61,005 nucleotides of DNA from contig BJGL01000004.1 in the NCBI GenBank assembly GCA_014190475.1, positions 1 to 61,005 on the forward strand, in the 5' to 3' direction. The DNA is from Bacteroidota bacterium. GTDB taxonomy: Bacteria; Bacteroidota; Bacteroidia; Chitinophagales; Chitinophagaceae. Under the pieces are notes generated by a model, which worked only from the letters and a program-made list of their open reading frames with translations, was not told the DNA's origin and made no database searches. This document shows, piece after piece, positions 11,427 through 28,522 of the stretch; the first letter of the stretch is position 1, and the number at the start of each line of letters is the position of its first letter. The position numbers and the translations under genes are program-made.

Positions 11427-12605
11427 CTATTCTTCGTCACGTTGAGGTTCACCACCATAGGGCCCAAATAAGGAATAAGATCGGCTGGCAGCCGTATAAA
11501 TCTGACGGTTGAATTTATTGCCTAAGATTATAACAGTTACCTGTTCGTCCGTTAATCTAGTAAAAGCCGCATTGTTGCCATGCCAACGTCCAAAATGATA
11601 AATAACCTTTTTTTGGTTGGGTAAGAGCTTTAGTCGAAATCCCAATCCATAGTTATTTTGACCTGGTCTTTCAAAGCTGTAAGGCGTAAAAGCCAGTGAT
11701 AATAGAGAATCACCAACTAGTTGTTGTGTATATAAGGCCTGATCCCATTTCAAGAGATCACGTGGCGTGCTGTAAATATTTTTATCGCCATATGTGTAGT
11801 CAAGATGATCCAATGGCCAGGCACGGCTTGTAGTTGCATAGGAGGGCGTTGCTTTTATGGAATCGGCGGGTTGAAAAACAAACGTATGCTTCATCTCTAA
11901 AAATTCAAAAATGGAACGATGAAGAAATTCAGGATAACTATATCCAGAAATTTTTTCAATCAGTGAAGCCAGTAACAGATAATTGGTATTACAATACTCG
12001 AAACGGGTGTCGGGTCGGGCCTGCATGGCAGGTTGATGCTCGATCATCCAATCAATCACTTCTTTGTTAGTGAAAGCAGTTTTAGAAGAATTATTAGCCT
12101 CCATGAAATAGACATAATTAGGCAAGCCGCTGCGATGCGTAAGCAATTGTTTAACGGTTACTCCAGGGTAAGGCCATTTTTTAAAATAAGAGGAGAGACT
12201 GTCGTCAAGTGATAATTTTTGTTGTTCAACTAATTGAAGAATAGCAATTGCTGTAAATGTCTTACTGGTAGAAGCGATGTGTAGGGGTGTATCTTCTTGC
12301 AGGGGGGTTATTTTAGATGGATAATCTACATAGCCCGCATAGTGTTCAAAAAGAATATTCCCGCCTTTTGCTACTAGAATTCCTCCACTAAATAGACCTT
12401 CAAATCGCAACAAGGATTCTTTAAAATAAGTAGCTACACGTGTACTCAATTCTTGTTTTTCTTTAGCACTAATGGATAGAAGTGGAGGAGCAAGGTAGGG
12501 GAGAGGATGAGAGGCCACATCCTCTTTCCAGACACAGGAGTTTAACGTACTGATCAGTAGCCAACACAGTACAAAAATCAAGCTGTAGTAGGGTTTGTTT
12601 TTCAA
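11427..12605 (-). CDS. Serine hydrolase lipoprotein (beta-lactamase/DD-peptidase fold)
   Basis: 392 aa when started at the TTG at 12605, which gives a textbook lipoprotein signal: MKNKPYY, a hydrophobic core, lipobox LNSC with Cys24. The frame has no ATG in this region, and the TTG lies 6 bases after an exact TACCTTTG -7 box, so the longer open frame to 12662 is rejected. Class C beta-lactamase/esterase motifs: S-T-S-K (Ser112, Lys115), Y-C-N, and a late FGRWHGN segment in place of KTG. Members act as esterases, DD-peptidases or D-amino-acid hydrolases; the substrate cannot be predicted. Expected anchored in a membrane facing the periplasm. Followed by nnr. Confidence 0.85.
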   Translation of the reverse strand: MKNKPYYSLIFVLCWLLISTLNSCVWKEDVASHPLPYLAPPLLSISAKEKQELSTRVATYFKESLLRFEGLFSGGILVAKGGNILFEHYAGYVDYPSKITPLQEDTPLHIASTSKTFTAIAILQLVEQQKLSLDDSLSSYFKKWPYPGVTVKQLLTHRSGLPNYVYFMEANNSSKTAFTNKEVIDWMIEHQPAMQARPDTRFEYCNTNYLLLASLIEKISGYSYPEFLHRSIFEFLEMKHTFVFQPADSIKATPSYATTSRAWPLDHLDYTYGDKNIYSTPRDLLKWDQALYTQQLVGDSLLSLAFTPYSFERPGQNNYGLGFRLKLLPNQKKVIYHFGRWHGNNAAFTRLTDEQVTVIILGNKFNRQIYTAASRSYSLFGPYGGEPQRDEE

Positions 12606-12611
12606 GCGGGT

Positions 12612-12619
12612 CAAAGGTA
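12612..12619 (-). promoter_or_regulatory. -7 promoter box for the serine hydrolase
   Basis: TACCTTTG on the minus strand, exact TAnnTTTG, ending 6 bases before the TTG start at 12605. The spacing predicts a leaderless or nearly leaderless mRNA and supports that start codon. Confidence 0.55.
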
Positions 12620-12640
12620 GGGACTCCTGTTTTTTATAGG

Positions 12641-12648
12641 TATATTTG
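12641..12648 (+). promoter_or_regulatory. -7 promoter box for serA
   Basis: TATATTTG, exact TAnnTTTG, with 7 bases between its last G and the serA ATG at 12656. It is divergent from the box at 12612-12619. A near-leaderless transcript is implied; no clear -33 TTG. Confidence 0.55.
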
Positions 12649-12655
12649 TTGAAGT

Positions 12656-13888
12656 ATGACAACTTTGACCAGTTATCCTAAAGAGAAAATAAAGATTTTA
12701 TTCCTGGAGAACATCAGCGAAACAGCGGTTCGAAATTTTAAGCAACAAGGTTATGTGCAAACAGAGCGAATCAGTAAAGCGCTGTCTGAACAACAACTCA
12801 TCGAGGCCATACGAGATGTTCATATTTTAGGAATACGTTCCAAAACCAAAATCACTAAACCCGTACTGGAAGCGGCCCAAAAGTTGCAAGCAATTGGTTG
12901 CTTTTGTATTGGTGTTAACCAAGTTGATATAGCAGCAGCAACCAGTCGGGGAGTTGCTGTGTTTAATGCGCCTTATTCAAACACAAGATCGGTAGCCGAA
13001 TTAGTGATTGGTGCCTCGATTATGCTGATTCGGAGAATTCCCGAAAAAAATAAAGCTGCTCATGCAGGCCTTTGGTATAAAGACGCTAAAAATAGTTACG
13101 AACTAAGAGGAAAAACCTTGGGTATAATCGGCTATGGGAATATTGGAAGTCAGGTAAGTGTATTAGCCGAAGCGTTAGGGATGCGTGTAATATATTATGA
13201 TATAGAGAAGAAGTTACCATTGGGCAATGCCGTTGAAAAAAGAAGTCTTCGCGAGTTGGTAGGACAAGCTGATATAGTAACACTCCATATTCCTGCTACA
13301 CGTCAAACTGAGCAACTTATCAATAAAACACTTTTAAAGAGTTTTAAAAAAGGCGCAATCCTGATCAATTTTGCCCGTGGCGAAGTAGTGGATTTAGTAG
13401 CCGTGGAAAAAGCATTGCGTGAAGAACATCTTGGTGGAGCCGCTATTGATGTATTTCCGGATGAACCTGAAAAGAATGGCGATTATTTCAAAAGCCCATT
13501 ACAGGAGTTGCCAAATGTTCTTCTTACACCGCATATTGGTGGAAGTACAGAAGAGGCTCAACAAAATATTGGGGAGGATGTCAGTAATAAGCTTTTCAAT
13601 TATCTAGAAAAAGGTATCAGTTTTGGTTCGCACACAGTGCCAGCCCTGGCTTTGCCACCACAGGAAGGTGCTCATCGAGTTTTACATATACACCGCAACA
13701 CCCCCGGCGTGTTATCCGCAATCAATACTGCCCTTTCAAGTAATAATATAAATATAGTTGGTCAGTATTTGAAAACCAATGATTTAATAGGATACGTAGT
13801 GCTAGATATTGAACGTAAATTATCTTCAAAGGCGCAATCCTTACTCCGGCAGGTCCCTGGCACAATCAAATCAAGGCTCCTTTACTAG
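12656..13888 (+). CDS. serA: D-3-phosphoglycerate dehydrogenase
   Basis: 410 aa, the same length class as E. coli SerA. It oxidises 3-phosphoglycerate with NAD in the first step of serine synthesis. Visible are the Rossmann motif LGIIGYGNIGSQ (about 153-164) with an acidic residue after the second strand (YYDIE), the catalytic Arg region INFARGEVVD, the Glu region AIDVFPDEPE and the catalytic His in TPHIGGSTEEAQ. The C-terminal 75 residues (HRVLHIHRNTPGVLSAIN...) form an ACT domain, the serine-binding feedback site in this family. Divergent from the serine hydrolase gene, alone on its strand, ending before a bidirectional terminator. Confidence 0.95.
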   Translation: MTTLTSYPKEKIKILFLENISETAVRNFKQQGYVQTERISKALSEQQLIEAIRDVHILGIRSKTKITKPVLEAAQKLQAIGCFCIGVNQVDIAAATSRGVAVFNAPYSNTRSVAELVIGASIMLIRRIPEKNKAAHAGLWYKDAKNSYELRGKTLGIIGYGNIGSQVSVLAEALGMRVIYYDIEKKLPLGNAVEKRSLRELVGQADIVTLHIPATRQTEQLINKTLLKSFKKGAILINFARGEVVDLVAVEKALREEHLGGAAIDVFPDEPEKNGDYFKSPLQELPNVLLTPHIGGSTEEAQQNIGEDVSNKLFNYLEKGISFGSHTVPALALPPQEGAHRVLHIHRNTPGVLSAINTALSSNNINIVGQYLKTNDLIGYVVLDIERKLSSKAQSLLRQVPGTIKSRLLY

Positions 13889-27043: not shown

Positions 27044-28048
27044 TTAAATGAGTGATGGTTGTGTTTTTATAACTTCTTTAAATCGGGCTACCGTTTTATC
27101 GAGCGAATCACCGCTTCTACCACCCGCTGCATTAAAATGGCCTCCCCCTTCAAAATAGGTTCGGGCAAATGTATTGCAATCGAATGAACCTTTACTCCTG
27201 AAGCTCCATTTTCTTTCTTCATCTCGATCTATAACCAGGGCTACCATTTTAATGCCTTGTATGGATTGTGGATAGTTTACAAGCCCCTCGGTATCACCAG
27301 TTTTAATTTGAAATTTCAACAAATCTGATTTTGGAATAGCTATTAAGGCTGTGTTGTACTCATAAAATATTTCCATTCGGTGAAGTAGCACATGCCCAAT
27401 GAAGCGAAGGCGATTCTCTAAAAAATTATCATATAAGCCTTCATGTATTTTACCGTGGTCTAAACCACGTGTTTTGAGATCCGCTACAATTGCATGCACT
27501 CCCGCATGGGCGGAGGCAAATCGAAAAGATCCCGTATCTCCTACCAAACCCGCATAAATACACTCAGAAATTGGCACATCGATTAACACAAGATCTCCAG
27601 CAGCTTTTATAAAATCATAAACCATCTCACAGGTAGAGCTTTTTGTGGTATCGCTAATACCAAAATGAAAGGAAGAATTATCAGGCTCTTGATGATGATC
27701 GATCAGTACTTTGATGCAGGTAAGATTAGCCAGTTTATCTGCCATCGATTTAGTGCGGTGAAACGCATTGAAATCCAAACAGAAAAGCAAATCTGCTTTT
27801 TCTAAAATAGCATCTGATTTTTCTTGCTGCTTTTCATAATTAAGTACATCCATGGTTCCCTGCATCCAATTTACCCAACCTGCCCAATTGGTGGGCGAAA
27901 TAACAGTTACTTCATGGCCTTTTTTTGTCAGGTATTGAGAAAGTGCAAGTGAGGATCCCATTGCATCTGCATCAGGCTTTTGATGCGTAGTAATCACCAC
28001 TTTTTGTGGGGTTTGCAGCTTGGGAAATAATGCTGAAATTGGATTCAT
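27044..28048 (-). CDS. nrnA: DHH/DHHA1 phosphoesterase, NrnA (oligoribonuclease / pAp phosphatase) type
   Basis: 334 aa. Manganese-site motifs: [30 protein letters not shown] and the next Asp in GLVGDTGSF. The C-terminal DHHA1 substrate motif is GGHFNAAGG. NrnA enzymes degrade 2-5 nt RNAs and dephosphorylate pAp, and replace Orn in Bacteroidota. The start is the ATG at 28048, only 7 bases from an exact -7 box, so the message is near leaderless. First gene of a pair with the FKBP lipoprotein. Divergent from ndk across a 57-base gap. Confidence 0.9.
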
Positions 28049-28055
28049 GAGCTTT

Positions 28056-28063
28056 CAAAGGTA
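28056..28063 (-). promoter_or_regulatory. -7 promoter box for the nrnA-FKBP pair
   Basis: TACCTTTG on the minus strand, exact TAnnTTTG, 7 bases from the ATG at 28048. Confidence 0.55.
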
Positions 28064-28077
28064 TGGAAAGATAGTTG

Positions 28078-28085
28078 TAACTTTG
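28078..28085 (+). promoter_or_regulatory. -7 promoter box for ndk
   Basis: TAACTTTG, exact TAnnTTTG, 20 bases before the ndk ATG at 28106; back to back with the nrnA box. Confidence 0.55.
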
Positions 28086-28105
28086 CGGCGCTAAACACAC
28101 TACCA

Positions 28106-28522
28106 ATGAGTAACCGAACTTTTACCATGATTAAGCCAGATGCCTTCCGCAAAGGCCACAGTGGCGCAATTTTAGACAGAATAATCAAAGAAGGATTTTC
28201 CATCAAAGCCATGAAGATGTTACACCTCTCCAAGGATAAGGCAGGAGAATTCTATGCGATTCATCGTGAGCGTCCTTTTTATGGCGAACTTGTAGAATTC
28301 ATGAGTAGCGGCCCTATTATCGCCGCCATTCTAGAAAAGGATAATGCGGTAGAAAGCTTTAGAAAATTAATTGGAGCTACTAACCCTGCTGCTGCCGAGG
28401 AGGGAACAATTCGAAAATTATTTGCTAGCTCCGTTGGAGAGAACGCGATACATGGAAGTGATAGCGATGCTAATGCTGCTATTGAAGCTGCCTTCTTCTT
28501 CTCTGGATTGGAACAATGCTAA
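28106..28522 (+). CDS. ndk: Nucleoside diphosphate kinase
   Basis: 138 aa, family length. It transfers the terminal phosphate between nucleoside di- and triphosphates through a phosphohistidine. Motifs: [14 protein letters not shown] at the start, [29 protein letters not shown], and the active-site His in NAIHGSDS. Single gene with its own promoter (28078-28085) and terminator (28545-28573). Confidence 0.97.

Follow-up and report, generated by a model that had tools for sequence, protein, structure and literature searches.

The divergent hydrolase and serA promoter region

The window, which comprises the whole 61,005-nucleotide stretch analysed (positions 1 to 61,005 of contig BJGL01000004.1 from a Chitinophagaceae member of the Bacteroidota), contains two divergently oriented genes that encode a serine hydrolase lipoprotein and a phosphoglycerate dehydrogenase (SerA). 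Two Bacteroidota -7 promoter boxes lie head to head between these genes. The features of the region were as follows.

11427-12605, minus strand: serine hydrolase of the beta-lactamase family (PF00144, by Pfam), lipoprotein, 392 aa
12534-12605, minus strand: lipoprotein signal peptide MKNKPYYSLIFVLCWLLISTLNS with the lipobox Cys at 12536-12534, read from the sequence
12603-12605, minus strand: TTG start codon of the hydrolase, from the start codons of 78 distinct loci
12606-12611, minus strand: six-base stretch ACCCGC between box and TTG, with the predicted transcript start at 12607 (G) or 12606
12612-12614, minus strand: alternative in-frame TTG within the promoter box
12612-12619, minus strand: -7 promoter box TACCTTTG of the hydrolase, exact match
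12620-12640: 21 bp interval between both boxes, reading GGAGTCCC on the minus strand, with GGAACCC or similar in relatives
12624-12628, minus strand: Shine-Dalgarno (SD)-like AGGAG, a rival signal that precedes the in-box TTG by 9 nt and the TTG at 12605 by 18 nt
12641-12648, plus strand: -7 promoter box TATATTTG of serA, exact match
12649-12655, plus strand: seven-base stretch TTGAAGT between box and ATG, with the predicted transcript start at 12653 or 12654
12656-13888, plus strand: serA, phosphoglycerate dehydrogenase, 410 aa (NCBIfam NF008759)

The initial annotation had placed an exact box six bases ahead of the hydrolase TTG and another seven bases ahead of the serA ATG, and both were confirmed: TACCTTTG (12619-12612) is followed by ACCCGC and the TTG at 12605-12603, while TATATTTG (12641-12648) is followed by TTGAAGT and the ATG at 12656. 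Both boxes also conform to TAHHTTTG (G being excluded from both middle positions), the revised -7 consensus reported for F. johnsoniae, in which the box of many promoters is separated from the transcript start by 4 or 5 nt (PMC6847099). Based on this published spacing, a leader of 1-2 nt is predicted for the hydrolase message and one of 2-3 nt for serA. A second head-to-head pair of boxes was observed in the region 28048-28106, with TACCTTTG at 28063-28056 on the minus strand, TAACTTTG at 28078-28085 on the plus strand and 14 bp between them; the minus-strand gene has its ATG 7 nt after the box and the plus-strand gene 20 nt after.

Pfam profile search assigned the hydrolase to PF00144 with an E value of 1.4e-54 (186 bits, cut-off 27), and its scores lay below the cut-offs of the class C beta-lactamase and D-aminopeptidase equivalog models, the best being NF009622 with 93 bits (cut-off 443), followed among those noted by bla_class_C with 50 (cut-off 415). 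Translation from the TTG at 12605 gives the positive n-region, hydrophobic core and lipobox Cys of a lipoprotein, as judged by eye and by a lipoprotein rule. The lipobox Cys is also present in hydrolase relatives, and the Asn at lipobox position -2 is, in our own reading, unusual. The claim that 12605 is the sole start giving a proper lipoprotein signal was not quite right, as the TTG codons at 12614-12612 and 12662 are also in frame.

SerA scored 609.9 bits against NF008759, above its equivalog cut-off of 404, and 285.7 bits against the longer TIGR01327 model, below its cut-off of 454. The best 80 SerA matches in named genomes were mostly metagenome-assembled genomes labelled Chitinophagaceae, Chitinophagales, Sphingobacteriales or Bacteroidetes, and named isolates among them included Terrimonas, Flavisolibacter and Sediminibacterium. 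Within the genus of the window, all 42 of 42 genomes had a SerA match, which reached at least 67% identity in 39 (partial in G007) and was distant only in G004, G008 and G012. Hydrolase matches accompanied serA at 96 of 110 serA loci (L051-L160, duplicates included), on the opposite strand in 96 of 96, and none was found at the remaining 14.

Start codon of the hydrolase in related loci

Start codons were assigned at 78 distinct loci (window included, duplicates removed) with a readable hydrolase N-terminus, where the assignment favours a start that precedes the lipobox Cys by about 16 codons and is followed directly by Lys or Arg. The assigned start was TTG at 52 loci, ATG at 21 and GTG at 5, it was followed by Lys in 47 of the 52 TTG loci, and it lay 14-17 codons ahead of the Cys in 62 of 78. 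Exactly 16 codons before the Cys, 32 loci have TTG, 10 ATG and 4 GTG, and such swapping of the three codons at one place is the behaviour expected of a true start codon. When mapped on the serA tree, the three start codons required 12 changes across all 78 rows, compared with an average of 23 for shuffled labels; after removal of eight doubtful or broken rows (L016, L027, L065, L108, L137, L153, L156 and L157), 10 codon changes and 2 changes between near and far spacing were counted. As the loci are related, Fisher values were treated as descriptive only. TTG was found in hydrolase copies down to about 44% identity, and it is an old start choice that is widely kept. With regard to the start region of the window, comparison among relatives favoured the TTG at 12605 through its conservation and spoke against a start at 12662 or further upstream, which is opposed by in-frame stops in L002, L003 and L005.

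Short box-to-start spacing in one clade

The assigned TTG lies 6 or 7 nt after the box at 11 loci (L001, which is the window, L002, L003, L005, L006, L027, L052, L054, L069, L071 and L079), and these together with L004 form one clade of 12 in the serA tree (SH-aLRT 97). Among the 78 distinct loci, an assigned start at 6-7 nt occurred in 11 of the 12 clade members and at 0 loci elsewhere, a restriction that depends on the start assignment since alternative, unassigned starts at spacings of 5-6 exist outside the clade in L012 (TTG at 5), L104 (ATG at 5) and L140 (TTG at 6). Further alternative starts were seen in L010 (ATG at 10) and L062 (TTG at 11). Outside the 6-7 nt group, wherever an exact box stood no more than 40 nt from the assigned start, the spacing was 14 or more, and no such box was present at 15 of the 52 TTG loci, 2 ATG loci and 1 GTG locus. 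L004 retains the box, but its TTG is replaced by TTC, and the gene starts at an ATG located 25 nt past the box. With the serA tree rooted only at its midpoint, the short hydrolase leader may have been gained in this clade, whose assemblies are about 1.5-2.1 Mb, or lost elsewhere.

All 12 clade members carry a hydrolase box, in the form TACCTTTG, TATCTTTG or TATATTTG, and the elements kept while the flanks vary were CAAATATA, an A-rich spacer, GGA..CCC-like bases, TA..TTTG and the TTG. This retention bears on the alternative that the box of the hydrolase matches by chance or marks a minor promoter, with the mRNA normally beginning elsewhere. Such a reading is consistent with the count of TANNTTTG on both strands of the window (47 occurrences vs 70.8 expected), which is no more than shuffles give, and with the lack of a clear -33 TTTG element by eye, an element that is described as weak in F. 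johnsoniae as well. However, the box is maintained in 12 of 12 members despite varying flanks, including L004 where the start codon has moved, and we regard this alternative as quite improbable. Using the same 47 occurrences, the chance of an exact box at a spacing of 3-8 from a given start was reckoned at about 0.2%.

Alternatively, the hydrolase message could be leadered, arising from a non-consensus promoter upstream and using AGGAG (12628-12624) as a Shine-Dalgarno sequence for initiation at the TTG at 12614, with a protein three residues longer as the outcome. AGGAG does lie 9 nt ahead of this codon, which is in frame in the window, L002, L003, L027, L052, L054 and L071, but L005, L006, L069 and L079 have it out of frame, and in-frame stops above it in L002, L003 and L052 speak against its use as the start. 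Moreover, the SD-like bases are changed to GGAA in a five-row subclade (L005, L069, L006, L071 and L079) and to GGCG in L027, Bacteroidota including Chitinophagia are reported to be mostly without SD use (PMC10783764), and no further exact minus-strand box was found between 12619 and 17955. A leadered message of this kind is unlikely.

The odd start could also reflect loss of function in a decaying gene, as is seen at one locus of the clade. L027 (G003:C2, 1223-1761) has a hydrolase orthologue that lacks a large internal part and has a broken frame, while both boxes, the TTG region and a serA match over at least 398 residues all remain. The window hydrolase, in contrast, is a full 392-aa frame with its PF00144 match intact, and the occurrence of TTG in copies of as little as about 44% identity argues against decay as well, which makes this explanation for the window highly improbable.

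Promoter spacing of serA

Among 87 distinct serA upstream sequences (one further sequence was left out as truncated), an exact box was located at a spacing of 3-8 in 50, and at a spacing of exactly 4 in 31, while 22 of the 37 others had a one-mismatch box at a spacing of 4-8. At eight control offsets further upstream, exact boxes appeared in 2 of 87 and one-mismatch boxes in 9 of 87. In the 12 clade loci the serA box stands 7 nt from the ATG in five, 4 nt in three, 6 nt in one and 31-39 nt in three (L005, L069 and L079), so that serA would be leadered in those three. Judged by these spacings, a leaderless-looking serA appears to be the usual layout in most relatives examined. On the serA strand, relatives such as L068, L087, L110 and L142 display CCCCA (often TTTTCCCC), an AT-rich TTAATA stretch, TATATTTG and the ATG in succession, and this layout hints at a conserved element, either an operator or an upstream promoter element, in the interval that separates serA from the hydrolase.

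Box-to-start spacing across genomes

Spacing from TAHHTTTG to potential starts was surveyed in five genomes of the genus (window, L031-L050 and L161-L198; 1.22 Mb), in which 911 genes were defined as the longest non-overlapping open frames of at least 120 codons rather than by a gene caller. ATG starts showed peaks of 21 at 4 nt and 13 at 5 nt over a background of 2.7 per position (Poisson P 1.4e-12 at spacing 4), and a second mode of 13 at 19 and 12 at 20, corresponding to a leader of about 15 nt, with fewer cases between the modes. GTG had 4 at spacing 4, and TTG showed no peak in these genomes, with 0, 1, 2 and 0 cases at 4, 5, 6 and 7 nt against a background of 1.75. The box-to-start distances at the locus, 6 for the hydrolase and 7 for serA, are outside the genus peak of 4-5, and both messages would thus be near-leaderless rather than exactly leaderless.

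Counts over the whole window genome followed the same trend, as box-N4-7-ATG occurred 113 times vs 68 for the reversed pattern, and box-N4-7-TTG was not enriched (48 vs 61). The first 30 of the 113 ATG matches included 25 distinct frames open for at least 80 codons, one of the five failures (L252) being near a contig end, and 4 of 30 checked TTG matches were open over that length. Near-leaderless ATG genes therefore look ordinary in the genus and in the window genome on the basis of these counts. The idea of near-leaderless TTG genes as a class found no support, given the missing spacing peak and the finding that, by eye, only the hydrolase looks like a real gene start among the 30 of 48 matches checked. 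The missing TTG enrichment near the box may mean that UUG works badly there.

Lipoprotein-like genes of the five genomes had a possible ATG in 67 of 70 cases, with 2 TTG-only genes (one being the hydrolase) and 1 GTG-only; any ATG 12 to 38 codons before the Cys was present at 26 of the 78 hydrolase loci, a count that does not need the Lys or Arg near the start that the rule for the 70-gene baseline does. The second TTG-only lipoprotein (L161:4706-5437, G039) was matched in 23 of 42 genus genomes, and its TTG is kept at the same place in 20 of 21 readable orthologues (L199-L219 and L221; L201 and L220, which do not reach the N-terminus, were left out), with ATG in L219. Since this unrelated family also keeps its TTG, both genes that were tried in the genus have stable TTG starts, and the hydrolase does not stand out through retention alone. 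Lipoproteins of this group may more widely retain TTG starts. A literature search on TTG starts of Bacteroidetes lipoproteins found no report.

Proposed transcripts and mechanism

The best explanation of the region is, in our judgement quite probably, a back-to-back pair of sigma-ABfr-type promoters whose predicted transcripts begin a few nucleotides from the start codons. RNA polymerase would occupy one of the two -7 boxes, and because the boxes are merely 21 bp apart, transcription of the hydrolase and of serA would probably compete, or exclude each other at any moment. For serA, translation would begin on an AUG message with almost no leader, the apparent layout in most of the relatives examined. 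The hydrolase message would read approximately 5'-GC-UUG-AAA..., beginning near 5'-GCUUGAAAAAC, with a UUG start that is common to leadered relatives; in the window clade the short spacer would place this UUG 1-3 nt from the 5' end, the leader length predicted from box spacing. In its minimum-energy fold, the predicted hydrolase mRNA shows no pairing over its first 36 nt, and no notable RNA structure was detected at the 5' end, where 195 and 189 of 200 shuffled sequences gave folds that were at least as good. Initiation at a UUG so close to the 5' end should be weak, and low output of this envelope hydrolase may be what is selected.

The initial annotation had described a TTG start on a leaderless message as unusual, which holds for a TTG with a near-absent leader and not for the short leader itself, an ordinary trait of serA in the relatives examined and of many ATG genes. 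The hydrolase TTG is likewise not tied to the short leader, as most leadered relatives also have TTG. The unusual part is only the meeting of TTG and near-absent leader, in one clade. Overall, the features first described proved real, and their reading was supported in part and in the main correct, with the weight shifted to this meeting.

Comparison with known systems

Among Bacteroidota, 5.5% of mapped mRNAs are reported as leaderless in F. psychrophilum (PMC9723704), 5' UTRs shorter than 10 nt make up about 3.7% in B. thetaiotaomicron (PMC7366714), and 87% of leaders exceed 10 nt in F. johnsoniae (PMC6847099). The short-leader and leaderless mRNAs of these species resemble those predicted here, in that TAnnTTTG lies 4-5 nt before the transcript start and a box near the start codon leaves little or no leader, but UUG starts are not described on them in the available text of these reports, whereas UUG is present at 11 loci of one clade here. 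Leaderless translation has been reported to require AUG in E. coli (PMC5622118, PMC4611024), and UUG accounts for 3% of leaderless genes in Propionibacterium acnes (PMC3848588). The P. acnes messages are alike in having UUG at or near the 5' end of native mRNAs; they differ in belonging to Actinobacteria, with no comparative conservation given in the accessible part of that report, while the present case lies in Bacteroidota and has a predicted leader of 1-3 nt. The leaderless and UUG-start literature covered, a body to which subscription journals contributed little, yielded no description of a conserved UUG start with a near-absent leader in Bacteroidota.

A conserved non-AUG start that is kept for low or regulated translation is known from the AUU of infC. 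Both cases share a rare start codon kept over long evolution, and they differ in that no autoregulation is suggested for the hydrolase and in that TTG is retained in another, unrelated lipoprotein as well.

In summary, the near-leaderless TTG of the hydrolase appears to be a real, conserved variant of moderate interest. It is conceivable, although we hold this view only tentatively, that Bacteroidota ribosomes are able to initiate, natively and under selection, on a UUG that has just 1-3 nt in front of it, of which E. coli ribosomes are reportedly incapable, and that the clade (11 loci) keeps such a message as a low-output setting opposite a short-leader or leaderless serA. The near-leaderless UUG message of this clade would offer a natural test case for start choice by the ribosomes of a mostly SD-free phylum. 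The serA set provides leaderless-looking genes whose box spacing is in many cases constant to the nucleotide, and it could be of use for correcting the annotation of starts and promoters in Chitinophagaceae.
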